This document shows positions 1,443 to 46,479 of a stretch of DNA of 64,000 nt, piece after piece; position 1 is the first letter of the stretch; every line of letters starts with the position of its first letter. Both the position numbers and the translations under genes were made by a program. Origin of the DNA: Methylomicrobium sp. (GTDB lineage: Bacteria > Pseudomonadota > Gammaproteobacteria > Methylococcales > Methylomonadaceae); the NCBI GenBank assembly GCA_018333785.1, contig JAGXSU010000059.1, positions 1 to 64,000 of the forward strand. The letters are read 5' to 3'. The notes under the pieces were generated by a model. That model did not search any database and was not told the origin of the DNA. It saw only the letters and a program-made list of their open reading frames with translations.

Positions 1443-2921
1443 ATGGCAGCCATGACAAGAGAAGAGACTGAAGCACTCATACAGGAAGTGCTGGAAGTCT
1501 ACCCTGAAAAAGCAAAAAACGATCGCGCCAAACATTTGGCCGTGAACGATCAAAGCCTGGAAAAAGCAAACAAGTGTATTACCTCAAACCGTAAGTCCCT
1601 GCCGGGCGTGATGACCATTCGTGGATGCGCCTACGCCGGTTCAAAAGGGGTGGTTTGGGGCCCGATCAAAGACATGATCCATATTTCCCACGGACCGGTC
1701 GGCTGCGGGCAATATTCCCGCGCCGGTCGCCGTAATTATTACGTCGGCACCACGGGTGTCAACACCTTCGGCACAATGAACTTTACTTCCGATTTTCAGG
1801 AAAAAGACATCGTATTCGGCGGCGATAAAAAGCTCGCCAAGCTGATCGATGAAATCGAAGTGTTGTTTCCATTGAATAAAGGCATTTCGATTCAATCGGA
1901 ATGCCCTATCGGTTTGATCGGTGACGACATCGAAGCAGTCGCCAAAGTCAAGAAAAAAGAACACGGAAAAACTATCGTACCGGTTCGGTGCGAAGGCTTT
2001 AGAGGAGTTTCTCAATCCTTGGGTCACCATATTGCAAATGACGCGATACGGGACTGGGTGCTGGAAAATCGTGATGGTGACGAAAGCTTCCCAACCACAC
2101 CTTATGATGTCGCTGTCATCGGCGATTACAACATCGGCGGAGATGCCTGGTCATCCAGAACCTTACTGGAAGAAATGGGTCTGCGTGTAGTGGCCCAATG
2201 GTCCGGTGACGGTACCATCGCTGAAATCGAAAAAACCCCTAAAGTGAAGCTGAACCTGATTCACTGTTACCGTTCGATGAACTACATCGCCCGGCATATG
2301 GAAGAAAAGTACAGCATTCCCTGGATTGAGTACAACTTCTTCGGTCCGACCAAAATCGCCGAATCGTTACGCAGAATCGCCTCCCACTTCGATGAAACCA
2401 TACAGGCAGGCGCAGAACGTGTGATTGAGCGCTACAAGATCGAATATGAAGCGGTAATTGCCAAGTACAAACCTCGCTTGCAAGGTAAACGCGTCATGCT
2501 GTATGTGGGCGGCCTCCGTCCGCGCCACGTGATCGGCGCTTATGAAGACTTGGGCATGGAAGTGGTGGGGACCGGCTACGAGTTTGCTCACAATGACGAC
2601 TACGACCGTACCATCAAGGAGATGGGTAACGCTACCCTGCTTTATGATGATGTGACCGGCTACGAGTTTGAAGAATTCGTCAAAAAAGTCCAGCCTGACC
2701 TCGTCGGATCCGGCATCAAGGAAAAATATATTTTCCAAAAAATGGGCGTCCCTTTCCGTCAAATGCACTCTTGGGATTATTCAGGACCTTATCACGGTTA
2801 CGACGGCTTTGCCATCTTCGCCAGGGATATGGATATGACTATCAACAATCCTTGCTGGAAAAACTTTAAAGCACCTTGGAAAACCGAGGCTGCCAGCGAT
2901 GCGGTAAAAGCGGTGGCGTAA
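1443..2921 (+). CDS. nifD: Nitrogenase molybdenum-iron protein alpha chain NifD
   Basis: The product (492 aa) is the alpha subunit of the MoFe protein, which carries FeMo-cofactor and reduces N2 to ammonia. P-cluster cysteines are visible in RGCAYAG, GPVGCG and QSECPIG. The FeMo-co Cys lies in [10 protein letters not shown] and the FeMo-co His environment in [15 protein letters not shown]. Length matches Mo-type NifD; the Mo-type motifs and the nifHDK order argue against Vnf/Anf alternative nitrogenases. The start is an ATG with a good AGGAGG site. It lies 138 bp after nifH, with a hairpin between that may allow higher NifH levels. Confidence 0.98.
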
Positions 2922-2929
2922 CACCCTGT

Positions 2930-2955
2930 GTTGGGTTGCAAATACCTGCAACCCA
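2930..2955 (+). repeat. Intercistronic hairpin, family C (nifD-nifK)
   Basis: TGGGTTGCA (2932-2940) and TGCAACCCA (2947-2955) form a perfect 9-bp stem just after the nifD stop codon. No U-tract follows. Confidence 0.65.
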
Positions 2956-3058
2956 TACAAAACAGATCTACCTAATGCAGGCTGGGTTGACCGATAAACC
3001 AACCCGGCTAAATCCAATCTACGCCGTCCACAGATTAGTGGCGCGTCAGGAGATTATC

Positions 3059-4630
3059 ATGAGCCAAGAAGTCGACAACATTCAACCCAGTTATCCATTG
3101 TTCCGTACCGACGAGTACAAAGAGAATCTGGCCAATAAACGCGAAGCCTACGAAGAACGTCATCCGCAGGAAACCATTGACGAGGTGTTTCAATGGACGA
3201 CCAGTCAGGAATACAAAGAGTTAAACTTCAACCGCGAAGCATTGACCGTAAACCCTGCCAAAGCCTGTCAACCTCTGGGTGCAGTATTATGCGCACTGGG
3301 TTTTGAAAAAACCCTGCCTTATGTGCATGGATCACAAGGTTGTGTGGCTTATTTTCGTACCTATTTCAATCGTCATTTTAAAGAACCGATATCCTGTGTC
3401 TCCGATTCGATGACTGAAGATGCAGCCGTATTCGGTGGGCAAAAAAATATGTTTGCCGGTCTCGAAAATGCGAAGGCGCTTTACAAGCCCGACATGATTG
3501 CCGTATCGACGACCTGTATGGCAGAAGTTATTGGTGACGACTTGAACGCGTTTATTAACAACGCCAAAAAAGAAGGCCATATCGAACAGGAATTTCCAAC
3601 GCCGTTTGCACATACGCCGAGCTTCGTCGGCAGTCATACAACCGGTTGGGATAATATGTTCGAAGGGATTGCCCGGTATTTCACGCTAAATTTCATGGAA
3701 GACAAAGAAGTCGGTTCTAATGGCAAAATTAATTTTGTCCCCGGTTTTGAAACCTATCTGGGAAATTTTCGCGTCATTCATCGTATGATGAAAGAAATGG
3801 GTGTCGATTATACGTTGCTCAGCGATCCTACCGAAGTACTGGATACTCCGGCTGACGGACAATTCCGCATGTATGCCGGCGGCACGACCATGGATGAAAT
3901 CAAGGATGCACCGAATGCCATCAATACGATTCTGCTGCAACCTTGGCAATTGGAAAAAACCAAGAAATATCTCAACACTACCTGGAAGCATGAAACACCG
4001 AAGCTGGAAATTCCGATGGGTCTTGAGTGGACCGACAAATTGTTGATGACCATTTCCGACCTGACCGGCAAACCGATTCCAGCCTCATTGGAAAAAGAGC
4101 GCGGCCGCTTTGTCGACATGATGACTGACTCCCATGCCTGGTTACACGGCAAGAAGTTCGCACTGTATGGCGATGCCGACTTTGTCTTGGGCATGACCAA
4201 ATTCCTGCTGGAACTGGGCGCCGAAGTGACTGACGTGTTGGCCAATCATGCGAACAAACGCTGGAAAAAAGCCTGTGAAGAAATTTTGAATGCTTCACCT
4301 TACGGCCAAAGTGCGACTGTTCATATCAGCAAAGACTTGTGGCATTTCCGATCATTGGTATTCACCAACAAACCTGATTTCATGATCGGTAATTCATACG
4401 GTAAATTTATTCAACGTGACACCTTCTACAAAGGTGAAGAGTTTGAGGTTCCGTTAATCCGGATAGGCTTTCCAATCTTTGACCGCCATCATTTGCACAG
4501 AATGACAACGCTCGGTTACGAAGGCGGCATGTATATCCTGACTACCCTGGTCAATGCCGTACTGGAGCAATTGGACAAGGAAACCAAAGGCATGGGCACT
4601 ACCGACTATAACTACGATTTGGTTCGCTAG
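3059..4630 (+). CDS. nifK: Nitrogenase molybdenum-iron protein beta chain NifK
   Basis: The product (523 aa) is the beta subunit of the MoFe protein, sharing the P-cluster with NifD. P-cluster cysteine motifs are visible: CQPLGAVLCALGF, GSQGCVAYFRTYF and STTCMAEVIGDD. The reading frame is open from 2876, but the ATG at 3059 (MSQEVDNIQPSYPLF) is the likely start. It follows an AGGAG site, gives the normal family length and removes an unlikely overlap with nifD. It is third in the nif operon and must be co-expressed with nifD for the alpha2beta2 tetramer. Confidence 0.97.
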   Translation: MSQEVDNIQPSYPLFRTDEYKENLANKREAYEERHPQETIDEVFQWTTSQEYKELNFNREALTVNPAKACQPLGAVLCALGFEKTLPYVHGSQGCVAYFRTYFNRHFKEPISCVSDSMTEDAAVFGGQKNMFAGLENAKALYKPDMIAVSTTCMAEVIGDDLNAFINNAKKEGHIEQEFPTPFAHTPSFVGSHTTGWDNMFEGIARYFTLNFMEDKEVGSNGKINFVPGFETYLGNFRVIHRMMKEMGVDYTLLSDPTEVLDTPADGQFRMYAGGTTMDEIKDAPNAINTILLQPWQLEKTKKYLNTTWKHETPKLEIPMGLEWTDKLLMTISDLTGKPIPASLEKERGRFVDMMTDSHAWLHGKKFALYGDADFVLGMTKFLLELGAEVTDVLANHANKRWKKACEEILNASPYGQSATVHISKDLWHFRSLVFTNKPDFMIGNSYGKFIQRDTFYKGEEFEVPLIRIGFPIFDRHHLHRMTTLGYEGGMYILTTLVNAVLEQLDKETKGMGTTDYNYDLVR

Positions 4631-6148: not shown

Positions 6149-6913
6149 ATGGACGGTGAACAACGCCCCGTTTCGACTCCGATGGCCGACTGCAGTCTAT
6201 GCCGTTTTCGCAGCAAAACATTGCTGATGGGCCGCTGTATGCCGGGTGACACCTGTGTAATGGCCGAAAGTGGCCGGCAAATTGACCGATTTCTCAGAGT
6301 CAATCCGTTTTATGCTGTGCTGTTTCTGACCGATGCCTTTTGGGAGAGACGCGCCATTGCTGTTCGCTATGCGCCGTTAAAAGCATTGCTGAACGTGATG
6401 ACTGACGAAGATGAAGTCGTCAGACGTGCCGTTGCTTTTCGGCTACCCCCGCACCAGTTGCTGCCGATGATTGACGATCCTGACCGGGAAGTACGCATGA
6501 CGGTTGCCAGTCGCATTGAACTGGAGCATCTGGAAAAGCTGGCAACTGACCGGGATTACATTGTCCGGGTAACCGTCGCCAAACGCCTGCCTACCGGCCG
6601 TTTATTCCGTTTTATCAAGGATGTGGATCTGGAAGTGCGCAAAGTCGTTGCCAAACGCCTTCCGGAAATGAGTCTTGGCCTGATGATTCATGACGACTCC
6701 CCGGAAATAAGACGAATTCTGGCAGAACGGATGGCGCCGGAGGATGTTTCGGTGCTGTTTAACGATGATGACTGGCTGGTACGTTATACCGCCGCGCTAC
6801 GCGCCAACCCTGACGACTTGTCGGGACTGGCCGACGATCCGGAACCCGATGTCCGGGCTTTGGTACATCAACGCCTTAATACTGCGCATCCATCAGGAGC
6901 TGAAAATGAATGA
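6149..6913 (+). CDS. LRV-type 4Fe-4S leucine-rich-repeat-variant protein
   Basis: The product (254 aa) has an N-terminal cysteine cluster (CSLC, then GRCMPGDTC, residues about 15-36) and then about eight 24-residue helical repeats of the form VRxxVAxRLPxxxLxxLxxDxD. This matches the Azotobacter vinelandii LRV protein, a 4Fe-4S protein with a repeat superhelix encoded in the nif region. Its role is unknown; the fold suggests protein-protein contact. The ATG has AAGGA upstream. The end overlaps the next gene by 8 bp. Confidence 0.88.
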   Translation: MDGEQRPVSTPMADCSLCRFRSKTLLMGRCMPGDTCVMAESGRQIDRFLRVNPFYAVLFLTDAFWERRAIAVRYAPLKALLNVMTDEDEVVRRAVAFRLPPHQLLPMIDDPDREVRMTVASRIELEHLEKLATDRDYIVRVTVAKRLPTGRLFRFIKDVDLEVRKVVAKRLPEMSLGLMIHDDSPEIRRILAERMAPEDVSVLFNDDDWLVRYTAALRANPDDLSGLADDPEPDVRALVHQRLNTAHPSGAENE

Positions 6914-7868
6914 GTCGCAATTAATCATTGCCGGTCAAACCCTCTCCGAATGCTGTAAAAAAATTATCCCGGGCCAAAACGATGAGGCGCTGTTGGCTAA
7001 ATTAGAATCACTCATTCCGGATTACCCGGTACGATTGGCCATGATTGGAGAAGAATGGTATCGCATAGGGGGTGTAGTCGACTCCGAAGGTAAACGTGTC
7101 GCTCACGATTTAATTGAATGGACGGAAAGAACCTATATTCAGTGCGGCCAAAATCTGCAAATCCTGATCGATCATGCCCGCGAACAAAAACTGATTGCCA
7201 CCCGGCAAACCGGCAAAACGCTGTATTTTGTCGTTCAAACCGGCAAGGAAGCCGCTGATTTCACCTTGATTGAAATCGACAAGACGCATGAAATTTCAGA
7301 CCGGTTAATGGTCAATGAAAAAGAGTTGCCGGAAGATTTAGAGGACTTTATTGATCCGATGAATCCGGCCAGTATTGAAAGCTTTTACCTGGGCTCATCC
7401 AATTACACTTACCGGCGCAAAACCGATATCACTCTCTTCATGGAAGAAATCAATAAACATCATGCGTTCGAACATCCGGTTCAACGTTTCATGGATGACT
7501 GGAATCGGAGCAGCGCCGGTCAAAGCCATAAACTGTCCGAAGACTGGATCATCCGGCCCTTTCAACATACCGGCCGGTTCGGCGAGCAGATTGTGAATGC
7601 CGAAATTATCAACACCCATATCAATCACCTGCCTTACCTTGAGGATATCGGCGGAATCAAAGGCAACACACTCAACAACCTGTTGAACCGGTTCGATCGT
7701 CAGGCCGGCTACCCCTTTGCCTGGTTTTTTTACATGGTCAAAGGCAAACTGGTTTCACCCTACAGCGCCCAATCGGTTTATAAAGACATCACTGGTGATT
7801 TTGCTTACCTTCCGGAACGCGACGAAGCCATTCTGCGCGACTGGATTGCCCAGCCTTATAATGTGTAA
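6906..7868 (+). CDS. Nif operon protein of unknown function (320 aa)
   Basis: I do not recognise a named domain. The protein looks soluble, with no signal peptide or membrane segment. The N-terminal third is helical with a Cys pair (ECCKK); the rest is mixed with many aromatic residues (EEWYRIGG, YLGSSNYTYRRK, GYPFAWFFYMVKG). The ATG at 6906 is chosen because it lies inside the end of the LRV gene (8-bp overlap, translational coupling); the frame is open further upstream only as a shadow of that gene. It is the last gene of the visible nif operon, so a role in nitrogenase maturation or protection is an inference from position only. Confidence 0.8.
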   Translation: MNESQLIIAGQTLSECCKKIIPGQNDEALLAKLESLIPDYPVRLAMIGEEWYRIGGVVDSEGKRVAHDLIEWTERTYIQCGQNLQILIDHAREQKLIATRQTGKTLYFVVQTGKEAADFTLIEIDKTHEISDRLMVNEKELPEDLEDFIDPMNPASIESFYLGSSNYTYRRKTDITLFMEEINKHHAFEHPVQRFMDDWNRSSAGQSHKLSEDWIIRPFQHTGRFGEQIVNAEIINTHINHLPYLEDIGGIKGNTLNNLLNRFDRQAGYPFAWFFYMVKGKLVSPYSAQSVYKDITGDFAYLPERDEAILRDWIAQPYNV

Positions 7869-7971
7869 TCCTTAACCCGGGTTCATCTGTATTTGCGAAC
7901 CCAATGCATATGGCCTTGAAGCTTAAATTACCCATTTCGACGAAAAATATACCCATTGTAGATCGAAATCC

Positions 7972-31263: not shown

Positions 31264-31867
31264 TTCTACTTTGTAAGATTTCAGGTTTCACATGACCGAA
31301 GGTCGTCATTCCGGCATAGATTGCCGGAGCCGTCAGACCGCATAAGCGAATGCAGGCTCCCATGGAGGGTTCGAAGCTCGCCTTCCATAGCACTGGATAC
31401 CCGCTTCCCGGCGGGTATGACGGTCTTTCTTCTAATCTGACAAAGTAGAACTAATCAGCTCAACAGGATTAACCAACCTGTCGATCCTGCCGGGATTGAC
31501 GAAACACAGAAGCCATGGATGGCGAATGCTGTAGCACATCCTTTTGCTCTGTACCCCTGCAATCCCTCAGCATTCCCTGACCGGGGCAGGCTCTGCCGGG
31601 ATCACGCCTCTGCTAAAAATTCACAGTGATCATGGGCTAATTGCCTTGTCCATTATTTCTCATACTTTCTTTAGCAAGAGCTCGCTTCGAATGATGCATA
31701 TTGCACTAAATCTAATCCACAACGATAATGCGGCCATGCTTACTTTTCGGGATTGATTTATGCGGGCACTCACTATCAACACTATCTTTACTCCCTTTCT
31801 CTATCTATCGACTTTAATTTAGTGCGAAAGCCAAACAATTGGCAGGCAAAATAGAGGAGGATTTATT
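31264..31867. other. Intergenic region rich in family B repeat remnants
   Basis: No gene is seen in about 600 bp. There are two degenerate repeat units, about 31300-31427 (CATTCCGGCATAGATTGCCG at one end, CCCGGCGGGTATGACGG at the other) and about 31475-31610 (AAGCCATGGATGGCG and GCCGGGATCACG). A small plus-strand frame at 31544-31756 lies within repeat sequence and is rejected. Confidence 0.6.
31300..31427. repeat. Dispersed repeat family B, copy 3
   Basis: It opens with GTCATTCCGGCATAGATTGC and closes with CCCGGCGGGTATGACGG; GTCAT/ATGAC ends are inverted. The middle carries CCATGGAGGGTTCGAAGCTC, similar to copy 1. Confidence 0.6.
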
Positions 31868-32455
31868 ATGCATACGCAAGCGGAAAACAGAAATCCAATC
31901 AGTGTTGAGGAGTATTTGGCAGGCGAGTTAATTGCTGAAACTAAACATGAACTCATCGATGGTCATGTTTATGCCATGGTGGGCACCAGCCGAAATCATC
32001 AGCGCATAGCTATCAATATTTTGACCGAATTTAAAAATCATTTAAAAAATCAGCCCTGCGAACCTTTGGGTTCAGATATGAAAGTTAAGGTCGGCTCAAA
32101 CTTTTTCTACCCTGATGTGATCGTCGATTGTGATTTTGACGAATCAGAGCCTTACTTTACCGATACCCCGGTCATCATTGTGGAAGTGCTGTCGAAATCA
32201 ACGCGTAGAAAAGACAGAACAACCAAGCTGTCCAATTACATCACAATTCCAAGTTTGCAAGAATATGTCATGATCGAACAAGACTGTGTGGACATTGAAG
32301 TACTTAGACGGAAAGACGGCTGGTTTTCAAAACACTATTATTTAGGCGACGACGTCAATTTTGAATCAATCGATTTGACGACAACAGTAGAATCTATCTA
32401 CGACCGCGTTCATAACGAAGACATGTTGGAGTTTTTGGCTGGAAAAGCTGGTTAA
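31868..32455 (+). CDS. Uma2-family (DUF820) putative endonuclease
   Basis: The product (195 aa) has the PD-(D/E)xK-like layout of Uma2 proteins: SVEEYLAGELIAETKHELIDGHVYAM, then FYPDVIVDCD and VIIVEVLSKSTRRKDRTTK, with the Asp and Glu-x-Leu catalytic residues. The true role of this family is unclear; it is abundant in cyanobacteria and gammaproteobacteria and often near repeats. The start has AGGAGG at a good distance. No partner gene is obvious. Confidence 0.87.
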   Translation: MHTQAENRNPISVEEYLAGELIAETKHELIDGHVYAMVGTSRNHQRIAINILTEFKNHLKNQPCEPLGSDMKVKVGSNFFYPDVIVDCDFDESEPYFTDTPVIIVEVLSKSTRRKDRTTKLSNYITIPSLQEYVMIEQDCVDIEVLRRKDGWFSKHYYLGDDVNFESIDLTTTVESIYDRVHNEDMLEFLAGKAG

Positions 32456-32534
32456 CAGCTCTATTGACATCCCACTATGCAGTAGGCCTTTGAACTTAAT
32501 TTTTTTACCAAGACATACAAGAACAAAGTCACCC

Positions 32535-33269
32535 ATGATTAAACTCTACTTTAAGAACCTCTATCAAAGAACCATGCGTGAGGCCTACGATTTGGCTTTC
32601 CGCGAAATAGCAGAAGCGCTTAAATCCGGCGGTTCATGTCTTGATTGTGGGGCAAATTCCGGTAATTCCTTAAAAAGGATTCAACAGTCTATCCCTTTTG
32701 ATACAGCTAACTATTCCGGTGTGGAATGGAGCCCGGAACTTTGCGAAAGAGCCCAGGCAAATGGATATAACATCATTCAAGCCGACTTAAATAAAGTACT
32801 GCCTTTTGAAAATAACAGCTTCCAGTGCATTTTTGGTTTATCTGTTCTCGAACATTTACTCAATGGCTGTGCATTTATGAAGGAATGTCATCGAACACTC
32901 GCCCAAAATGGAACTTTGGTTTTACTGACACCCAATATCAGCACTTTTTTTACTATTGCCTTGCTAATCGCCGGTAAAATGCCTTCCAGCGGTCCTCATC
33001 CAGACTCCAACGCACTGCTTGCCAGCGAAGAACTGTTAAAAGTCAGTCGACTCGAGTTAACGCCCGACACAGAATCCGAAACACCTTTGCATCGCCATCT
33101 GGTTGTATTCAGTTACCGGGTACTCCACCGTTATCTCAACCTATTAGGGTTCGCTGACGTAAAAGGCTATGGTTTTGGGCTCTACCCCTTCCCAAACTTT
33201 ATGCAACCCATGCTGGAAAAAATCGATCCGTATCACTGCCATCAAATGGTTTTTGTTGCTCGGAAATAG
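32535..33269 (+). CDS. Class I SAM-dependent methyltransferase
   Basis: The product (244 aa) has a Rossmann-type methyltransferase core: CLDCGANSGNSL (motif I), YSGVEWSPELCERA, IIQADLNKVLPF and a SVLEHL post-motif. It probably methylates a sugar or lipid intermediate, because it sits beside the polysaccharide genes, but the substrate is unknown. The ATG at 32535 (MIKLYFKNLY) is preferred to an upstream start at 32490; neither has a strong ribosome site. Confidence 0.82.
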   Translation: MIKLYFKNLYQRTMREAYDLAFREIAEALKSGGSCLDCGANSGNSLKRIQQSIPFDTANYSGVEWSPELCERAQANGYNIIQADLNKVLPFENNSFQCIFGLSVLEHLLNGCAFMKECHRTLAQNGTLVLLTPNISTFFTIALLIAGKMPSSGPHPDSNALLASEELLKVSRLELTPDTESETPLHRHLVVFSYRVLHRYLNLLGFADVKGYGFGLYPFPNFMQPMLEKIDPYHCHQMVFVARK

Positions 33270-33383
33270 GTGCTAGCGATTGAGAGTTTAGAAAAATTCT
33301 TTCTGACCAAATTTTGAATCACATCCGCTATCAGCCATTAAGTCAGCCGGTAATGACGCCAGCTTTTTTAAAATCGTGAGCCA

Positions 33384-37878: not shown

Positions 37879-38364
37879 TTAAAGTTGTTGAGATTCTCCT
37901 GCCAACTCGAGTACCGTATTTATTAAACTTTCGCTGATGTATACAGGGCTTGAGGCAATTAGCTCTAATAAGGGCGCAATTAATTGAATATGTCCTGCGC
38001 GTTTAGCTTGCAGTAAAACGCCAACTGATCCAATAGTTTTGATTTGGTTTATTTTTGCAACTTTACGGCCGCGCTTATCATCAATGAGCAAATAATCCGC
38101 AGACACCTCCTTGTAAAGAAGCATAGCCTCTGTTTCTCCCGCGTCAGCAAAAGCATCCAAATAAACAAACCGCTGCGTATCTACAACACGTACCTTGCCT
38201 TTCAGATAAGATTGCAAGCAAGATGAGTGTGCTTTATCGACTTTAGCAATTTCAGAATATACAGTTTGGGGTACAAGGACTTCGCCAAAAAGTTTATCGA
38301 GTAAAGACAGGCTATTACAGGAAGCAAGTGCAATCAAAGCAGAAGCATCGGCAACCAAGATCAT
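37879..38364 (-). CDS. DUF3368-type PIN domain toxin
   Basis: The product (161 aa) is a PIN-like ribonuclease-fold protein: LVADASALIALA (first Asp), the GETEAMLLYKE middle acidic residues and LLIDDKRGRKVA (late Asp pair). DUF3368 proteins are paired with UPF0175 antitoxins, which is the case here: the upstream gene overlaps by 4 bp. It probably cleaves RNA when free. It sits inside the polysaccharide operon on the same strand. Confidence 0.88.
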   Translation of the reverse strand: MILVADASALIALASCNSLSLLDKLFGEVLVPQTVYSEIAKVDKAHSSCLQSYLKGKVRVVDTQRFVYLDAFADAGETEAMLLYKEVSADYLLIDDKRGRKVAKINQIKTIGSVGVLLQAKRAGHIQLIAPLLELIASSPVYISESLINTVLELAGESQQL

Positions 38365-38612
38365 GGTGTTTTGAAACAGCTCAGTTCTTCAAGAATTTCA
38401 TCACGTGTGATGTTGATGATAGGAACCTTGTTTGCTTTACAAATGCACATGAATTCATAAAGATCGAACCCCGCCAGTTCCGCCGCTTTTGCCAGCGTTA
38501 CGCGCTCGTGTTGATATAGCCAAACAGCATAGGAGGTTCGGATTTCTTGCTTAATGTCGTTTTCAGTTTGAAATTCGACAAAGTCATTGGGAAGATCGAT
38601 AGCGATTTGCAT
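38361..38612 (-). CDS. UPF0175-family antitoxin
   Basis: The product (83 aa) contains the UPF0175 signature: an N-terminal strand IAIDLPNDF, then VTLAKAAELAGFDLYEFMCICKANKVPI, an HTH-like region. It should neutralise the DUF3368 toxin encoded immediately downstream. The ATG at 38612 has GAGAGG upstream; the frame is open to 38681 but the family begins at this Met. Confidence 0.9.
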   Translation of the reverse strand: MQIAIDLPNDFVEFQTENDIKQEIRTSYAVWLYQHERVTLAKAAELAGFDLYEFMCICKANKVPIINITRDEILEELSCFKTP

Positions 38613-38698
38613 AATATGCCTCTCAATTTTGTCAATAGAGACATAGACCGCAATTGTATCTATTGATATAGGTTTTGTCATAGGAGCTGCTTTAGTCG

Positions 38699-39703
38699 CT
38701 ACAAAAGTATGATTATTTTTGTTTTAGGATAAACATATTGTTTAATTGAGCGTAGCATAGTATAGATTAAACGAAATTTAAGAAATAAAAGAACAGCAGG
38801 ATCAATGTCAAGCAATTCGCAAACATTGAACTTGCAATGCATCAGGTTTATTAGAAGTTTATCGGTATTAAGCTTTTCCGAGCTTTTGATTGATCTTCTT
38901 AGTAAGCGACGTTGTTCACCTTTTAATGCCCTATAGGTTTCTTCTTTTAAATGATTTGATTGCTTAATGAACTCTTGTATTTTTGAGGCGCTTTGCACTA
39001 AGCCCTCTACATTATGAAATGTTACATTAGTGGTCATGATCGAATTTTCTCGTACTCGTCGCTTAAATAAAATATTGCTTAATGAAATTGCTTTCTGCGC
39101 ACAGCAAAAAATTATTGGGGTAAGTCCTTCGTCTTCATGTAAATAGCCTTCGTCAAAATACAGATTATTTTGGTCGATAATTTTTTTACTAAACAAATAA
39201 AGACATGGCGATGGCGAATAGGCATTGGCTCTAACAAGTCTAGTAAATAGACCCGAGCCAGTTGTTGGTCTACAAATATCCGGTTTTTGGTAGAAGTTAA
39301 AATGCTTCTCAGCTCCTGGAATAGAAGAAAAGGCTCTTCCAGAAAAAACAATTAAGTCAAGTTTTAATTTAAATATTGATCTTATGCAAATTGCTAAAGC
39401 ATCAAGCTCCAATAGATCATCGCCATCAAAAAAGTAAATATAAGACCCAGCCGAATTTTTTAAGCCTAAATTTCTTGCCGCGCTCGGTCCAAGGTTTTGT
39501 TGAGATATGATTCTAATTCTATTGTCGGTATTCGCATAATTCGCTGCAATTGATAAAGAATTATCAGTGGAGCCATCATTAATTATGATAAGTTCAAAAT
39601 TATTAAATTCTTGGCCTAGTATCGACTCAATTGCGTCTGATATATAATTATCAACATTATATATAGGCATAATTATTGATAATAAACAATTAGAATTAGC
39701 CAT
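38699..39703 (-). CDS. GT2 glycosyltransferase
   Basis: The product (334 aa) has a GT2 core in the first 110 residues: LSIIMPIYNVDNYISDAIESI, LIIINDGSTDNS, GPSAARNLGLKNSAGSYIYFFDGDDLL (DGDD metal site). The remaining 200 residues are helical and Lys-rich. It begins 5 bp after the WbsX-like gene stop. Low GC, with many AAT, ATA and TTA codons, differs from the mxa and nif regions and points to transfer. Confidence 0.88.
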   Translation of the reverse strand: MANSNCLLSIIMPIYNVDNYISDAIESILGQEFNNFELIIINDGSTDNSLSIAANYANTDNRIRIISQQNLGPSAARNLGLKNSAGSYIYFFDGDDLLELDALAICIRSIFKLKLDLIVFSGRAFSSIPGAEKHFNFYQKPDICRPTTGSGLFTRLVRANAYSPSPCLYLFSKKIIDQNNLYFDEGYLHEDEGLTPIIFCCAQKAISLSNILFKRRVRENSIMTTNVTFHNVEGLVQSASKIQEFIKQSNHLKEETYRALKGEQRRLLRRSIKSSEKLNTDKLLINLMHCKFNVCELLDIDPAVLLFLKFRLIYTMLRSIKQYVYPKTKIIILL

Positions 39704-39708
39704 TGTTT

Positions 39709-40812
39709 TTATCTGAAATTTTCTAATTCGGCCTGAAATACTTCAAGGTATTTTTTGCCGAAGCGCAAGTCAGGCTCAATATAATTACCTTCTGCCCATT
39801 CGTTCCATGACTTTATAAATATAAATCTTCGACTGTCGGGTAGGTTTTTTGCTCTCATCAAGGCCTTTCTTAAATGACTTTTAAAAAGTTCAGGAGTTGA
39901 TGCAAATAGAACTCTACCATTTATGCCACTACGAGGGGTATTATCCCAATTAGGAATAACACAGGGTAATGAGTCTATCCCTTCGACTTGATAAAAAGGC
40001 ATTTCATCTAAAGATTTCTTATAATCATAAATGGAGGGATAATTTAATAACTTATAATATTCATTAAGTATTTTTCTTAAAGGCTTTTTCCAGCCGACTT
40101 TTTCCGTTTTTAATGGAGGAAGTTTTACATTATAAATCGCGTCGAATCCAGCTGATTTCGGTTCCCAAATATTTGATCCGTCGTGCTGAGCAACAAGATA
40201 TAGTCCTGGCAACCCATTTTTTAACGCTAATTCTCTCCAATAATCGGTCACCCTTAGTGAATCAGGCAGTTCTCTTGGTTGGAAAATCACGAATAATGGC
40301 TTACCGTCAGCTTTTACATATCGATGATCTTGGAATGAGCGTAGCAGATATTCAAAATGACGTTTGTGGTCGCCCATCCCTGGATAAGTTTGTTCAATCA
40401 ACGTTCTATTGGGTGCACCATGCCAAATACCCGACCAAGTTTGATTTGCCCAACAAAGGCAGAATGGAAAATCGGGCTCACCCGATTCGAGAACTTCATT
40501 GAATGGGCGTTCGAGTATACGTTTTCCAGCAAACCAATAGTGGTAATAACAAAACGCTTCTATACCATATTCTTTTGCTAATTCCGCCTGTGCTAATCGC
40601 GCTTCGGGCAAACGAAGATCATAAAATCCTAAATCACCGGGTACGTTTGGTTGATAATGCCTAGGAAATAATGGTTTAGCCTTAGCTGTATTAGTCCATT
40701 CGGTAAAGCCTTTGCCCCACCATACGTCATTTTCAGGAATAGGGTGAAACTGAGGCAGATATAAAGCAATTGCGCGTATCCTTTTATTTAGATCTGCAGA
40801 GGGATTGGTCAT
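39709..40812 (-). CDS. WbsX-like (GH99-like domain) glycan protein
   Basis: The product (367 aa) matches the WbsX/GH99-like group found in O-antigen and rhamnan clusters: RAIALYLPQFHPIPENDVWWGKGFTEW at the start, EAFCYYHYWFAGKRILERPF, FCLCWANQTWSGIW and a C-terminal KSWNEWAEGNYIEPD. Related domains act on mannose-type glycans, but the WbsX function is not firmly established. The ATG at 40812 is preferred to a TTG eight codons upstream. Confidence 0.87.
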   Translation of the reverse strand: MTNPSADLNKRIRAIALYLPQFHPIPENDVWWGKGFTEWTNTAKAKPLFPRHYQPNVPGDLGFYDLRLPEARLAQAELAKEYGIEAFCYYHYWFAGKRILERPFNEVLESGEPDFPFCLCWANQTWSGIWHGAPNRTLIEQTYPGMGDHKRHFEYLLRSFQDHRYVKADGKPLFVIFQPRELPDSLRVTDYWRELALKNGLPGLYLVAQHDGSNIWEPKSAGFDAIYNVKLPPLKTEKVGWKKPLRKILNEYYKLLNYPSIYDYKKSLDEMPFYQVEGIDSLPCVIPNWDNTPRSGINGRVLFASTPELFKSHLRKALMRAKNLPDSRRFIFIKSWNEWAEGNYIEPDLRFGKKYLEVFQAELENFR

Positions 40813-40845
40813 ATGTTTTTGATATTTAAACGTCAAGCGTATTAT

Positions 40846-41700
40846 CTAAAGTATTTTTTCTAAAATCCATATAGCTCTTGTGTGTAAATTTTTTTTTGAA
40901 ATATAGTATTTTTCTAGCTCTTTAATTTTATATTTCAATAATATTCTAACTGTTATGTTTTTATTAAAGTTATTATGTTGTTTTACAATTGCTTGTTTAA
41001 ATCCCATGTACATGGCTTCTTTATTTTTACAAAGACTATCGCTAGTTTTACGGTAAATAGCGAGGGCTTCCGGAACTACCTTGGTCTCTGGTGCTAAGGC
41101 AAATATTCTCATCCAACAATCCCAATCTTCATGATTAGGTAACGACTGATCGAATCTAATATTGAATTCACTAAAAAAACGGGCGTCAAATAAAAAGCAA
41201 TGGACTGGAATGCTAAGCCTTGTCTCCCACCTCAAGGCAACATCATATAGAGCATTTCTCATTACCAACCTTGAAGGAGAACGCTGAATTTGTAAAGGTG
41301 TTTGGCAAATATCTTCGTCCAGACCCATTAAATAATCTGAATAGCAAAGACAGAGGCTATTTGTAGATAAAAGCGCTCTTAATTGAAGTGAAAACTTGTC
41401 TTCTCTGATTTTATCATCAGCATCTAAAAATTGTATGTAATCTCCAAATGCGACATCTAATCCAGCATTTCTAGCACCGGACAGACCTTTGTTTTTTTGA
41501 TTGATTACCTTGATTCTGTTATCGGTTTTTGATAGTTCTGTTGCGACTTGTGCTGTATTATCGGTTGAGCCATCATTGACAATAATACATTCCCATTTTT
41601 CATATGTTTGGTTTTTTATGCTATGAATAGCGTCGGTTAGATATCTTGCTTGATTATAACAGGGGACAATCACGGTAATTAGCGGTGCATTATTTGTCAT
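40846..41700 (-). CDS. GT2 glycosyltransferase
   Basis: The product (284 aa) is a GT2 enzyme: ITVIVPCYNQARYLTDAIHSI, CIIVNDGSTDNT, GLSGARNAGLDVAFGDYIQFLDADD (DADD metal site). It ends in a Lys/Tyr-rich helical tail. Substrate unknown. Strongly AT-rich, like its neighbours. Confidence 0.88.
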   Translation of the reverse strand: MTNNAPLITVIVPCYNQARYLTDAIHSIKNQTYEKWECIIVNDGSTDNTAQVATELSKTDNRIKVINQKNKGLSGARNAGLDVAFGDYIQFLDADDKIREDKFSLQLRALLSTNSLCLCYSDYLMGLDEDICQTPLQIQRSPSRLVMRNALYDVALRWETRLSIPVHCFLFDARFFSEFNIRFDQSLPNHEDWDCWMRIFALAPETKVVPEALAIYRKTSDSLCKNKEAMYMGFKQAIVKQHNNFNKNITVRILLKYKIKELEKYYISKKNLHTRAIWILEKIL

Positions 41701-41753
41701 AATTTTTATGACTGAGCAGTGTTAATAATAAATACTTTTAAGAGGTTTGTGAA

Positions 41754-43226
41754 TTAGTACTTATAGGTATTTGATCGGTCTTCGGCCCAGTACCTTATTG
41801 CTTTTAACATTCGCCTAGGGTACGGAAGGCAATAAATAATTCTTCTCATTAAACTACCTGATCCATACCTTAATCTTCTAGGGGTGATTAAATTTATGTA
41901 TTCGTGCATGTTAGCTATGTATTGCAAATCAATTTTTATTTTTGGAAAAAATTTTTCATATATTTCGTTGTGATTTTGCGATGTATCGTTCAAGTAGATG
42001 GATATGTCATTAATGTTTCTGAAAGATTCATAATCTTCGCAGTTTTCATTAGTTAAATACATCTGATCATAAAAGAGATATGAGGCAAAATCGGACCAGT
42101 TCTTTAGTTTGGTTTCTAAATCAACCTTATCGAGCCAGTTTGATATTACATTTTGATCATTATGGTTATATTCGTACACAATGTTTTTATTTGATAAAAG
42201 TGATTTCCCTAGCTGTAGTACCGCTTTATCTAGGACTAAAGATTCAAATAACGAGCTCGAATTAACTCCTACAACATAATCTGCCAAGTTTAAGCATGAT
42301 TTTAATGATAAAGAATTGGTCCAAATGCCTTGTTTTTTTATAATTCTTTCGTAAGCGTCTGTTTTATCGTGATTGCATGGGTGTTGTTTTGCTATTATGT
42401 AGATGTCATTTCTTGCTTTTAACTGTTCGCATAGCCATTTTAAAGCGTCAATATTTTTTTTAAAGAATGGCGAAAAATAAAAGTTAGAGGTATCTTCATC
42501 TAACTGATTAAAAAATAGAATTACTTTTTTGTTTTTTGGTATTGAAATGTATTTATTATTGGATGATGGTTGAGGATGCCATGTAAAGCTGCAATCTTTA
42601 TATAGTTTCTTGTAAGATAAGTAAAGGCTATGCGATCTTTTTTGAGTTTGTGCATCGGGCCATTCCCAATTCGTTTTATTTGCGATTGGGTGGCTTCCAT
42701 TGAATCCACCATTAAATCCTAACTTGCTTAGCTGCATTGTATCAGGTAAAGGACCACGTTCAATAAACACGACAGGACATGATATTTTATTGCATATATT
42801 TTTTAATATTATCTGTGTCGGTAATTCACCATTCCATATAATGCATGATTTTGGTTTTAATGAGGTTATTAATTCTATATATAAATTATGTATATATCTT
42901 GCACCGCTTTTTCTTAGTTCAATACTTCCTTTCCCAAACCACTTTTCTTCTATTTCTAGGAGTTCGGCAATGTTGTCAACGTCTTCCTCGGGAAAGGATG
43001 TGTATATGTTTGTGTATGAAGATAATATGGGTGGCATATACAAATAAGGCATGCATAAATTATTTTCAGCCTCTTTATTTGTTGAAGTACCCATTAATAA
43101 AAATTCTAAGTTTAATTTAAGAAGGCTTTCTCTCGTTCTATTCCAGAAATGAATTTCTGTTTTAGATAATGATGTTGATGCATATACTAATAATTTTTGA
43201 GTATTTTCTTCAAATTTATAAAGCAT
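41754..43226 (-). CDS. Capsule-polysaccharide-type protein, possible glycosyltransferase
   Basis: The product (490 aa) is soluble. The segment VILFFNQLDEDTSNF, then IIAKQHPCNHD and LNLADYVVGVNSSSLFESLVLDKAVLQLGK resembles the Capsule_synth (KpsS/KpsC-like) pattern of HP...VNSS...E...LGK. That family includes Kdo transferases and other GT-B enzymes. I cannot name the sugar. It lies between the Wzt gene and a GT2 gene on the same strand. The coding sequence is AT-rich. Confidence 0.65.
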   Translation of the reverse strand: MLYKFEENTQKLLVYASTSLSKTEIHFWNRTRESLLKLNLEFLLMGTSTNKEAENNLCMPYLYMPPILSSYTNIYTSFPEEDVDNIAELLEIEEKWFGKGSIELRKSGARYIHNLYIELITSLKPKSCIIWNGELPTQIILKNICNKISCPVVFIERGPLPDTMQLSKLGFNGGFNGSHPIANKTNWEWPDAQTQKRSHSLYLSYKKLYKDCSFTWHPQPSSNNKYISIPKNKKVILFFNQLDEDTSNFYFSPFFKKNIDALKWLCEQLKARNDIYIIAKQHPCNHDKTDAYERIIKKQGIWTNSLSLKSCLNLADYVVGVNSSSLFESLVLDKAVLQLGKSLLSNKNIVYEYNHNDQNVISNWLDKVDLETKLKNWSDFASYLFYDQMYLTNENCEDYESFRNINDISIYLNDTSQNHNEIYEKFFPKIKIDLQYIANMHEYINLITPRRLRYGSGSLMRRIIYCLPYPRRMLKAIRYWAEDRSNTYKY

Positions 43227-43325
43227 TTTCTATATTTTCATTTTAATGGTATAAAAATCGTTATCATAGACCTTCATAAGCCTGGATGAAATAGATTGTG
43301 TTATAATTTATTGTTTGCCTGTGGT

Positions 43326-44573
43326 TTATTTTTCACGATGACTGTTTGTTGAATATTTTTTATTAACGCTGGTAACCTTCCAATGTGATGTTAATTGCTG
43401 TGTAGCACAGCCAATTTGATTTCCTTTTATAGTGATAATACCTGCAAATCTTATCCAATCATAATGTTTATTATATTTTTTTGATATTAATATAAGACCA
43501 ATGTTGTAGGCGCCTGGATTTATATTAATATTTTCAATTACTATATCAACATTTATGAATTTTTCGTCTTTTACTAGTATTTTTGCTTCATTTAAATGGC
43601 TATTACATTCGGCAACCACCTCTCCATCAGCTTTTCTGAATTCAACTATTAATACCAAATCGTCTATTGTCCTTCCGATTAATTTCAAATTTATATGTAT
43701 TAACTTTCCGTAGGTGAACTCCTTTGTTTTGTTGTTAAACTCATCTAAATACTCAAACGATGTTATTTCGGCTTCTTGTGTTCCGGTTCGAATATCATCA
43801 GTGTTTTTCGTCAAATATATTTTGTCATATTCGATAGATGCGATAGTTGGATTTCCGTAATATTTCACCTGCCCCTGATCAAGTAATAAAGATTGATCGG
43901 ATATTCGAGTTATTTGTTGCATAGAGTGTGAGACAAATAATACAGCTGATTTAGGTAACAAATTTGCAATAGCGTTATAGCATTTTGTACGAAAACCTAC
44001 GTCACCGACTGCAAGTACCTCATCCAAAATCAAAACATCCGGCTCCATCTGCACCGCAATCGCAAACCCTAATCTCACATACATCCCGCTCGAATAATGC
44101 TTGACCGGCATATCGATAAACTCTTCCAACTCAGCAAACGCAACAATTTCATCGAATTTCTTGTCGATCTCGCGTTTGCTCATGCCGAGAATCGCACCGT
44201 TGACATAGATATTTTCCCGCCCTGTTAGCATCGGGTGAAATCCGGCGCCGACTTCGATCAGAGCACCAACTTTACCTTTAATCGTGATTTTGCCTTTGTC
44301 CGGCAGAATGATGCCGTTGAGCATTTTTAATAAGGTGCTCTTCCCTGCTCCATTACGACCAATAATACCCAGACATTCGCCGCGTTTGACTTCAAACGAC
44401 ACATCGTCAACCGCCCAAAATTCATCCCCCCGTAACTTGTCCGAGGTGTTTGGCAAATGCAGCAGGTCGCGACTGATGTCTTCGATGCCATAAAGCATAG
44501 ACCGTTTCAGTGAGCGGCAGAATTTTTTGCTGACGTTTTCGACTTTGATTAAGACGTCGTCTGAGTTTGACAT
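43326..44573 (-). CDS. O-antigen/polysaccharide ABC transporter ATP-binding protein (Wzt-like)
   Basis: The product (415 aa) has an N-terminal ABC ATPase (Walker A IIGRNGAGKST, signature YSSGMYVRLGFAIA, Walker B VLILDEVLAVGD) and a C-terminal domain of about 150 residues (from about 260) of the Wzt carbohydrate-binding type. It exports the lipid-linked glycan together with Wzm. The first 57 residues are duplicated upstream as a gene fragment (45362-45586). The N-terminal ATPase part has higher GC than the C-terminal domain, in line with exchange of the glycan-binding domain. Confidence 0.92.
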   Translation of the reverse strand: MSNSDDVLIKVENVSKKFCRSLKRSMLYGIEDISRDLLHLPNTSDKLRGDEFWAVDDVSFEVKRGECLGIIGRNGAGKSTLLKMLNGIILPDKGKITIKGKVGALIEVGAGFHPMLTGRENIYVNGAILGMSKREIDKKFDEIVAFAELEEFIDMPVKHYSSGMYVRLGFAIAVQMEPDVLILDEVLAVGDVGFRTKCYNAIANLLPKSAVLFVSHSMQQITRISDQSLLLDQGQVKYYGNPTIASIEYDKIYLTKNTDDIRTGTQEAEITSFEYLDEFNNKTKEFTYGKLIHINLKLIGRTIDDLVLIVEFRKADGEVVAECNSHLNEAKILVKDEKFINVDIVIENININPGAYNIGLILISKKYNKHYDWIRFAGIITIKGNQIGCATQQLTSHWKVTSVNKKYSTNSHREK

Positions 44574-44585
44574 GGGAGTATCGTG

Positions 44586-44995
44586 TTATGGATTCGCCGT
44601 TTGAAATATATTTACAGCGAGGCTGTTAGCCGCTTCTTTCAAACGATTATCATTGGTCCAAAATTCCGTGCAGCCATTTTCTATCGCTGTGGCTAAGTGA
44701 AGCGCATCGGGTGTTTTAATTTTATGCTTGACTCTCAAGTTTAACGCTCTGGCAATTAAAGTGCATTGATGGTTAACCATCGTTGGTCAGCCAAAAATAG
44801 CTCATAATCTTCAACTAGTATTTGATTACCTTCAATCAACGGCTTTACAAGGCATCCAAGGCGGACTAAAGATGATATGCATAAAATAGCATCTAGGTTA
44901 TTTGCAAGGTGTTGTCGAATAAGACCGCTGAAAGGCTGTGCATCTTCCAGCAAATAAATGACACAACACATGTCAATATAAATTAGTCGGAGCAT
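44586..44995 (-). pseudogene. VapC-like PIN toxin gene, frameshifted
   Basis: Two overlapping frames together encode a VapC-type PIN protein. The first (44995 to about 44756) carries LIYIDMCCVIYLLE and ends RWLTINAL. The second carries on with TLIARALNLRVKHKIKTPDALHLATAIENGCTEFWTNDNRLKEAA to 44586, including the conserved late Asp residues. The shift lies around 44756-44775; a single-base indel would restore one frame. The start overlaps the antitoxin stop by 1 base (TGATG). A sequencing error or programmed frameshift are the alternatives. Confidence 0.82.
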
Positions 44996-45267
44996 CAGTC
45001 GTTATTCCATTCATCCCGAATAGCAAAAATGCGTCGTTGTACTTCTTCTAGGTTAGCTCTTGGACGGTGCTGGAAACGAGGAGATGCCAAAAGTCTTAGT
45101 GTGCGAGACACACTTCCTTTAGTTTCGGTTAACGTTGCATCGGATTCTTCGTTCGCATCACTTTCCAATAGCGTAAGCAGCGCCTTACCTTCTAACTTGA
45201 ACATGATCGGCTCTAAGGCTTGGATATGTCCAGTTGGGTCAATCTCAACGTGTATGGTTTTTAGCAT
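44995..45267 (-). CDS. Putative antitoxin of the VapC-like module
   Basis: The product (90 aa) begins MLKTIHVEIDPTGHIQALEP, a strand pattern seen in small antitoxins paired with PIN toxins, and ends in a Arg-rich helical tail. The assignment rests on its coupling (1-bp overlap) with the PIN toxin gene. The Met at 45267 is chosen over an upstream start at 45288. Confidence 0.72.
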   Translation of the reverse strand: MLKTIHVEIDPTGHIQALEPIMFKLEGKALLTLLESDANEESDATLTETKGSVSRTLRLLASPRFQHRPRANLEEVQRRIFAIRDEWNND

Positions 45268-45361
45268 GGCTTTGTTCCTAAATAGCAATCAAGGATAGTA
45301 GCATTGACATAGATATACACGCGCATGGCCTACATCAGGTTACAGCCCACGCAAACTCCAA

Positions 45362-45586
45362 TCAACGCTGCATCTTTGCCTTTGTACAGCAGGATGTTGG
45401 CATGAACTTTTTGTTTTTATTAATAGCCCAAAATTCATCTCTGCGTAATTTGTCCGAGGTGTTCGGCAAATGCACAAGGTCGCGACTGATGTCTTCGATG
45501 CCATAAAGCATAGACCGTTTCAGCGAGCGGCAGAATTTTTTCAAGACATTATTGGCTTTGATTAAAACTTCGTATGAATTTGACAC
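45362..45586 (-). pseudogene. Truncated duplicate of the wzt 5' end
   Basis: The fragment (74 codons) begins MSNSYEVLIKANNVLKKFCR and follows the first 57 residues of the intact Wzt-like protein with few changes (LYGIEDISRDLVHLPNTSDK and DEFWAI match closely). It then runs into unrelated sequence before Walker A. It cannot be a working ATPase. It stands between wzm and the toxin-antitoxin module, where the intact wzt would be expected. Confidence 0.88.
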
Positions 45587-45627
45587 CCGTTAAACCCAGA
45601 ATTCGACATCAAAATTATATCTTTTAT

Positions 45628-46479
45628 TCAAGCCCGCTCGGCAATTCTGGGCAGGGTAATGTAAAAAACCCGCCAGCCCAATAAAAAAACCATTATGGCT
45701 ATTCCCGCTGCAACCGGCAATGCTGTCATTTGACTTAACGTTTGGCCGACCAGTAATTCCTGAGTAGCAATGACCAGAGGACTGAACGGATTTAACGTAT
45801 TAGCCCATACAAAGGGTTCTCTGATCGGGGGCGGATAGAGAATCGGTGCTAAAAACATACCGAACGTCAAGATCATACTGATTGCATTACCCGCATCACG
45901 AAACACCAAGTTGAGTATGGCCATGAAAAAACCGATACCGAGCGCCATCATAATGACCAAAATCAATATGAGGGGAATAGCCAAAGCATGCATTGAAGGC
46001 AAATAACCGTACCAGATAAATACGGCAGCAATCGGTACCAAGCGTATCAAAAAATCGATACCCGCCTGCCCTACTGAAGCAAACACCAGGGCTTCTTTTG
46101 TAAAATTGATTTTTGTCACCAATGATCCGGCATTGATCAGGCTGTTGGTGCTGCCCACCAAACAACTTGAAAATAGTTGCCAAACGGATAAGCTCCATAA
46201 TGCGTGCAAGACATAAGGCAAACTGGTTTCACCCATGTCAAAGACCCTGTGTTTAGCCAAAAAGGTAAATAGGGTTACTGTGACAATTTGCGGAAGAACG
46301 GCCCAGACATAACCCAAAATGGATTGCCGGTAGCGGACAGCAAAATCTCTTTTCATCAACCTCAGGATGAGCTCCCTGCTTTGCCAGACAGATTTAACCA
46401 TGATCACCCAGACTAAAAGACCGGACTGACGGCGAGCATTGGGTGTATAGACGGTGATAATTTCGTGTTGTTTTTCCAT
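45628..46479 (-). CDS. O-antigen/polysaccharide ABC transporter permease (Wzm-like)
   Basis: The product (283 aa) is an ABC-2 permease with about six membrane segments and the family start LILRLMKRDFAVRYRQSILGYVWAVLPQ. It forms the channel of the exporter with Wzt. It is the first gene of the minus-strand polysaccharide operon. The 275 bp upstream to bioA should hold the operon promoter; no clear boxes were assigned and no gene is seen there. Confidence 0.92.
   Translation of the reverse strand: MEKQHEIITVYTPNARRQSGLLVWVIMVKSVWQSRELILRLMKRDFAVRYRQSILGYVWAVLPQIVTVTLFTFLAKHRVFDMGETSLPYVLHALWSLSVWQLFSSCLVGSTNSLINAGSLVTKINFTKEALVFASVGQAGIDFLIRLVPIAAVFIWYGYLPSMHALAIPLILILVIMMALGIGFFMAILNLVFRDAGNAISMILTFGMFLAPILYPPPIREPFVWANTLNPFSPLVIATQELLVGQTLSQMTALPVAAGIAIMVFLLGWRVFYITLPRIAERA

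Follow-up and report, generated by a model that had tools for sequence, protein, structure and literature searches.

Toxin-antitoxin modules with 5' scars of wzt, the gene of a polysaccharide export ATPase, form an array of a known kind in an unexpected place, from which we infer how such modules arrive. The window, that is the whole stretch of 64,000 nucleotides of DNA that was analysed, carries such a module between wzm and an intact wzt gene. Upstream of the module lies a fragment which is a decaying wzt 5' end of about 129 codons and probably the scar of a capture of the module by recombination at wzt. The genome of the window is designated G000 and that of its sister species G001; G151 is Methylomonas lenta R-45370 and G011 is Methylotuvimicrobium buryatense 5G. 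Genes that we take to be methanol dehydrogenase-like were recognised in G000, which, like its relatives, fits a gammaproteobacterial methanotroph.

On the minus strand the genes are arranged in the order wzm, wzt 5' fragment, antitoxin-like gene, PIN toxin gene and intact wzt (Table 1). Matches to the antitoxin of at least 79% were found in five genomes (G000 and the query genome included), every one of them at wzt. The PIN toxin gene is frameshifted, encoding residues 1-77 in one frame and 80-133 in the other, and is 78-81% identical in these two frames to the intact toxin of G011; PF01850 was detected in its C-terminal part with an E value of 3.2e-9 and in the intact G011 toxin with 3.2e-17. 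With a PIN domain in the toxin gene and a small gene upstream, the layout is that of a PIN (VapC-like) toxin-antitoxin pair, the small gene being the putative partner. Ten proteins were scanned against NCBIfam and PADLOC: the sole NCBIfam match was a RelE/StbE-type toxin below the cut-off, and PADLOC matched only the candidate family PDC-S70, for the UPF0175 and DUF3368 proteins. A promoter scan was uninformative (2 sites versus 4.9 expected).

Table 1. Features of the wzm-wzt locus and of the exchanged block in the window.
Feature	Position	Strand	Remarks
wzm, permease of polysaccharide ABC exporter	45628..46479	minus	PF01061; 96% to G001, 88% to G002
wzt 5' fragment, piece A	45426..45586	minus	codons 1 to ~54; GTG replaces ATG; 160 nt, 88% to intact wzt
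wzt 5' fragment, piece B	45304..45412	minus	codons ~83-125 (~129 in multiple alignment), after internal deletion
Antitoxin-like gene	44995..45288	minus	probable ATG at 45267; no Pfam or NCBIfam match
PIN-domain toxin gene	44586..44995	minus	frameshifted; frames 44756-44995 and 44586-44780
Junction, toxin stop to wzt ATG	44574..44585	minus	12 nt; similar in relatives (compared by eye)
Intact wzt	43326..44573	minus	415 aa; ABC_tran, Wzt_C
Exchanged block versus G001	38620..44040	minus	glycosyltransferase and capsule-type genes, 3' part of wzt; edges approximate
UPF0175 antitoxin-type gene	38361..38681	minus	PF03683; probable start 38615, at far edge of exchanged block
DUF3368 (PIN-like) gene, UPF0175 partner	37879..38364	minus	PF11848

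The preliminary description had reported that the wzt 5' end occurs twice and flanks an antitoxin and a PIN toxin. A repeat search confirmed this: two direct copies of 160 nt are present on the minus strand, one in the intact gene (44413-44572) and one at 45426-45585, with the antitoxin-like and PIN-domain genes between them, and they are the only direct-repeat family of at least 60 nt detected in the window. The duplication is longer than had been claimed. After a gap the fragment resumes with piece B, which aligns to wzt nt 247-374 with a local alignment score of 66.5, and in a multiple alignment with the copies of G001 and G011 it reaches about codon 129, immediately next to the antitoxin. 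None of 2000 mononucleotide shuffles reached this score (maximum 45), which together with the match of the two copies in a DNA search (E 3.9e-53) rules out chance similarity. Base-by-base alignment also bore out that the copies differ at a number of bases; the differences are uneven, affecting 12 of the 45 sites of nt 1-45 and 8 of the 116 sites of nt 46-161. No source of the fragment in another wzt of the same genome was found: searches with DNA (E up to 0.001) and protein (E up to 1e-6) gave no further copy of the wzt 5' end.

G000 and G001 have a common fragment-antitoxin junction, showing that the fragment is older than the split between them. The G001 counterpart no longer has the wzt start codon and runs into a stop in the wzt frame, so the fragment looks like a scar and not like a gene. 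Of the idea of an older, independent gene, which the preliminary description had named as the refuting case, the age thus holds and the independent gene apparently does not.

A Wzt N-terminus of the window type was found in 11 of 237 genomes of the same family, and six of these carriers contain at least two wzt 5' copies: two each in G000, G001, G151 and G199, three in G011, and three in G200 plus a short one beside wzm. In the multi-copy genomes the copies are separated by toxin-antitoxin-type modules of several kinds. In transcription order, the array of G001 consists of wzm, DUF2442, a 211-aa gene, UPF0175, a wzt fragment, the antitoxin, a broken PIN gene, a PIN2 pair and wzt; that of G011 of wzm, a wzt fragment, antitoxin, PIN, a wzt fragment, broken DUF4160/DUF2442 and a wzt fragment; and that of G199 of wzm, a wzt fragment, antitoxin, a broken PIN gene, a wzt fragment and further modules. 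G151 has a PIN2 pair behind an inverted wzm, followed by the 211-aa gene, antitoxin, PIN, a wzt fragment, UPF0175/DUF3368 and wzt. The longest array, in G200, starts with wzm, a wzt stub, a PIN2 pair, a RelB/ParE-type pair, a wzt fragment and the remains of another wzm and of another wzt type, after which follow broken DUF4160/DUF2442, a wzt fragment, UPF0175/DUF3368 and wzt. Several module types are thus stacked at wzt in these five genomes, and one module is present in the window itself.

The other carriers have simpler loci. In the comparison with relatives lacking the module, proposed in the preliminary description, wzm is directly followed by wzt, with no modules, in G179, G141 and G066; the sister species G001 has the same fragment-antitoxin junction as the window. 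G196 has wzm, a wzt fragment, DUF2442 and the stub of a second wzt start; G197, with a degenerate wzt piece only, was left out of the analysis. No full wzt was found in the stretch examined in G011, G196 and G199, so wzt is rebuilt or retained in some genomes only. In a sample of the class, the window-type N-terminus was present in 5 of 369 genomes, with extra copies only in G000 and G011, and among named genomes (271 relatives, 79 loci kept) extra wzt 5' copies were found in M. lenta and M. buryatense. A Verrucomicrobia contig (L058) carries two longer wzt genes, at 2143-3540 and 6744-7885, with almost identical N-termini. In M. lenta the orientation of wzm (L036:3796-4638) is opposite to that of the array and wzt. 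A gene of 206-211 aa of no known family recurs near wzm, on either side (L013:10440-11075, L015:9879-10499, L036:5622-6242); its G001 copy had no match in Pfam, NCBIfam or PADLOC.

Pfam supports the assignment of PIN, UPF0175, DUF3368 and the RelB-like and ParE pair, and that of DUF4160 in intact family homologs elsewhere; DUF2442 in G011 (23.4 versus 23.9 bits) and PIN2 in G001 (22.5 versus 23.6) fall below the cut-off. Hand-scoring of 18 modules found the antitoxin-type gene intact in 16 and the toxin-type gene in 7 (discordant modules 10 versus 1, p 0.012). The same scoring without DUF2442/DUF4160, whose roles are uncertain, gave 6 versus 1 among 13 modules (p 0.125); the counts hint at a preferential loss of toxins. 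By eye, REP/MITE-like palindromic repeats seem to lie within a wzt fragment and a DUF4160-like gene (L037:6640-7440, L038:7200-9960).

The module lineages appear to move together with the wzt locus and not as independent elements, since their closest homologs in the family are all found at this locus, the other loci fetched showed no wzt or wzm nearby, and plasmid and phage records gave no match. The 13 closest family homologs (antitoxin 5, PIN2 3, DUF2442 5) are located here, and the 64 other homolog loci fetched had no wzt or wzm match within at most about 1.5 kb on each side. These numbers refer to 77 loci, of which some are the same place reached by two queries and some are cut by contig ends; 24 further PIN2 matches and 13 further DUF2442 matches came without a locus and were left out. 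Twelve of the loci hold wzt or wzm, and the thirteenth wzt-linked homolog, the DUF2442 gene of G199, lies about 2.1 kb from a wzt copy. The wzt-linked homologs are clearly separated from the next best match for the antitoxin (54%) and PIN2 (55%); DUF2442 is not separated, the G001 gene at wzt having 79% and two genes elsewhere 78%. Carriage on plasmids or phages was rejected, no record in either collection matching positions 44400-45700 in distant mode (E up to 1e-5).

Junctions between modules and the wzt 5' end have matching sequence in genomes of three genera. As compared by eye, the stretch from the end of the PIN toxin to the wzt ATG is alike in G000, G001, G011, G151 and G199, and the DUF2442-to-wzt spacer is alike in G011, G196 and G200. 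Several unrelated modules have their right border immediately upstream of the wzt ATG. On the left side, three unrelated module types have their border at wzt codons ~128-132 (PIN in G000, G001, G011 and G199; DUF4160 in G011 and G200; UPF0175 in G200), with the DUF4160 border of G200 joining a different wzt type; the left border of UPF0175 in G151 lies near codon 80, unlike the others. The clustering at codons ~128-132 is not what random illegitimate joining would predict, and it counts against the capture proposed below.

Genes between wzm and wzt were also seen in more distant organisms. Two Spartobacteria loci (L083:7348-8698, L090:494-1209) have a Phd-type/PIN pair there and no wzt fragment; for the L083 pair PF01850 was matched and PF02604 scored 29.0 bits, just below the cut-off. 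Genes adjoining this pair in L083 are presumably DUF4160/DUF2442-like. On a deltaproteobacterial contig (L069:6714-7272), two small overlapping genes, which we take to be HicB/HicA-like and which had no Pfam match, lie between wzm and wzt, and so does, in two unrelated genomes, what is presumably a four-helix (23S rRNA intervening-sequence)-like gene (L045:5646-6005, L046:8579-8968). The wzm-wzt junction may draw such modules more widely.

Trees of the wzt 5' copies, from which G200_f1 (78 nt) was left out, gave different answers for different genomes. A single clade of the three copies of G011 was rejected (p-AU 9.5e-7), as was the pair of its copies f1 and f2 (p-AU 0.00014), so local duplication fails in G011. 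For the two copies of G199 the p-AU value was 0.031, uncorrected for the several clades tested, and for those of G200 it was 0.058. Local duplication would fit G000/G001, whose four copies as one clade had a p-AU of 0.41, and for G151, whose two copies pair together at 93/92. The pair of the intact gene and the fragment of G000 was rejected, only because the fragment predates the split from G001. A clade of all module-linked copies was neither supported nor rejected (p-AU 0.32). G011_f3 groups with G200_f3 at 97/93, and each of the two follows DUF2442. A weak branch (75/81) in the best tree has all nine Methylotuvimicrobium-group copies, wzm-adjacent and module-linked, on the same side, an argument against recent intergeneric transfer.

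The wzm-adjacent copies of the Methylotuvimicrobium group begin with (M)SDE, and those of G199, G011 and G196 group at 89/96; copies behind modules begin with M(S/P)NSD where the start is kept. G011_f1, G196_f1 and G200_f1 are mutually 81-93% identical and G199_f1 reaches 77-78%, despite wzm identities of 93-99% throughout, showing that the wzm-adjacent copies track wzm only loosely. Across genera, G000, G151 and G200 share 83-88% identity in their intact wzt 5' ends, against 64-67% in wzm. In the module-free G179, wzt is 73-75% and wzm 62-71% identical, and part of the difference is thus due to wzt changing more slowly.

A check for recombination breakpoints, suggested in the preliminary description, located one within wzt relative to the sister species. 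G000 and G001 are collinear at 92-96% over the stretch compared (window 17.5-62.7 kb), apart from small gaps and one block. This block of about 5.4 kb has no match to G001 except for a 340-nt stretch at 71%, and contains the 3' part of wzt together with genes of glycosyltransferase type. The edges of the block are at ~44040 (wzt codon ~178) and ~38600-38620 (the probable start of the UPF0175 antitoxin). Window positions 31423-33299, with genes which we take to be Uma2-like and methyltransferase-like, likewise had no match in the G001 region compared.

The first 160 nt of the window's intact wzt show a mosaic similarity. Up to nt ~45 the gene resembles module-linked copies in a triplet test of nt 1-161, and from there on its own fragment. 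Thirteen of 51 triplets had p values under 0.05, one of them with an outgroup, and only two passed the threshold of 0.05/51 (0.0002 with G011_f3, 0.0006 with G200_f3); the triplets with G151 (0.005 and 0.015) failed correction. At several informative sites the change in G000 is confined to the fragment, and conversion or decay inside the fragment would therefore look much the same. The full-length test gave p under 0.05 for 26 of 51 triplets, nine of which had an outgroup as third sequence; it is thus unsafe and picks up uneven decay too.

A capture at wzt would connect these observations as follows. In a donor strain a module would have been fixed before the wzt start codon and would arrive together with the wzt 5' part behind it. 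The incoming wzt part would pair with the resident gene, cross over early in the open reading frame and restore a complete wzt, and the far end of the module would be attached by illegitimate joining within the resident gene, in the window near codon 129. The homology would be one-sided, and the resident 5' end would stay behind upstream of the module as the fragment. One homologous and one non-homologous junction per event would be expected, and candidates for them in the window are the mosaic change near wzt nt 45-60 on one side and the module-wzt fusion near codon 129 on the other; the direction and order of events are inferred. Repeated captures, some presumably between genera, later homologous exchange between copies and decay by internal deletions, frameshifts, repeat insertions or module loss would produce modules alternating with wzt 5' scars from wzm to wzt. 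Addiction may help the modules to persist, and exchanges of the sugar gene block downstream would use the same wzt core for their crossover. Further observations count against capture: no donor form was seen, and in G001 the second PIN module sits inside the first with no added wzt copy. The preliminary description had offered recombination between diverged wzt alleles and entry of the module with a wzt copy as alternatives. These look like one process, since the module-wzt junction occurs in three genera, a breakpoint lies in wzt between sister species, wzt is mosaic and the G011 copies are not one clade; plain local duplication, in the lineage of the window, is compatible with the p-AU value given above, so that the preliminary interpretation is supported in part.

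Alternatively, the module could have entered wzt by an insertion with a long target duplication, doubling about 390 bp of the resident gene, so that both copies would stem from one allele and have diverged later. We consider this unlikely, though the geometry fits (codons 1-129 on the left, the full gene on the right) and so do the mutually nearest copies of G151 and the possible four-copy clade of G000/G001. According to PMC3874152, the target duplications made on insertion by some restriction-modification systems are long and vary in length, on the order of 100 bp. Against it stands the tree of the three G011 copies, the only genome in which it is rejected. Right borders at the wzt ATG are expected from a donor junction and less so if they were created anew each time. 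The mosaic in the window's wzt also argues for capture, although conversion after duplication could give the same.

Still less probable, in our view, is that unequal or ordinary homologous recombination between array-bearing strains moved the whole set, which older deletions or insertions of another kind would have founded, leaving the fragment as inherited debris. The junction common to G000 and G001 agrees with this, as nothing was created recently here, and array segments are common to several genomes; such transfer would account for the spread, but not for the joining of a truncated wzt to a module, which has happened with three module types. It is highly improbable that selection keeps the fragment as a working short gene or leader (74-aa ORF) with a coupling to the antitoxin. 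Its ORF is open in the window with a GTG start, and an upstream TTG could still open the frame in G001 (75-aa ORF), but at the wzt position the G001 counterpart lacks a start codon and in the wzt frame it runs into a stop, and the copies of G199 and G200 are broken in other ways.

Capture at wzt has a parallel in the type VI secretion (T6SS) effector-immunity arrays of Vibrio cholerae. For these, Kirchberger et al. (2017, PMC5361080) propose a route akin to homology-facilitated illegitimate recombination, argue against duplication much as we do here and name Rhs orphan 3' ends beside the Vibrio arrays. Both systems accumulate two-gene modules of horizontal origin next to a single anchor gene and retain parts of former alleles, and copies in one genome (here those of G011) need not be mutually nearest. 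In contrast to the T6SS arrays, the anchor wzt encodes a polysaccharide export ATPase and lies outside the module, downstream of the cargo; its scars are 5' ends, and several unrelated families of toxin-antitoxin-type pairs make up the modules.

Restriction-modification systems were reportedly shown by Nobusato et al. in 2000 to insert with long target duplication. In these systems, as here, a small addiction-type unit lies between direct repeats of host sequence of about 100 bp or more; unlike there, the repeats in G011 come from different alleles, the right border is at a start codon and several units occupy one site. Surface-polysaccharide gene blocks are exchanged by recombination in flanking genes. 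The window resembles this in that a variable block was swapped between near-identical flanks, with a conserved wzt 5' part and a variable 3' part, and differs in having toxin-antitoxin-type genes at both edges of the exchanged block. In the open-licence library searched we found no precedent for toxin-antitoxin modules between wzm and wzt, or for such modules tied to homology-facilitated illegitimate recombination.

A more far-reaching and doubtful reading is that a toxin-antitoxin module with a wzt 5' end is a self-favouring, recombinase-free cassette. It would spread between genera through host recombination at a sugar-switching junction, rebuild the gene it enters, be retained by addiction and bias which polysaccharide exchanges survive, with wzt expression placed behind the toxin-antitoxin genes. 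It has long been asked how toxin-antitoxin modules without a transposase get to their chromosomal positions and stay there. At wzt the marks of successive arrivals are still readable and the anchor gene is known. Since the array lies at a junction of polysaccharide block exchange, both the entry route and an addiction-biased switching of surface sugars become testable.
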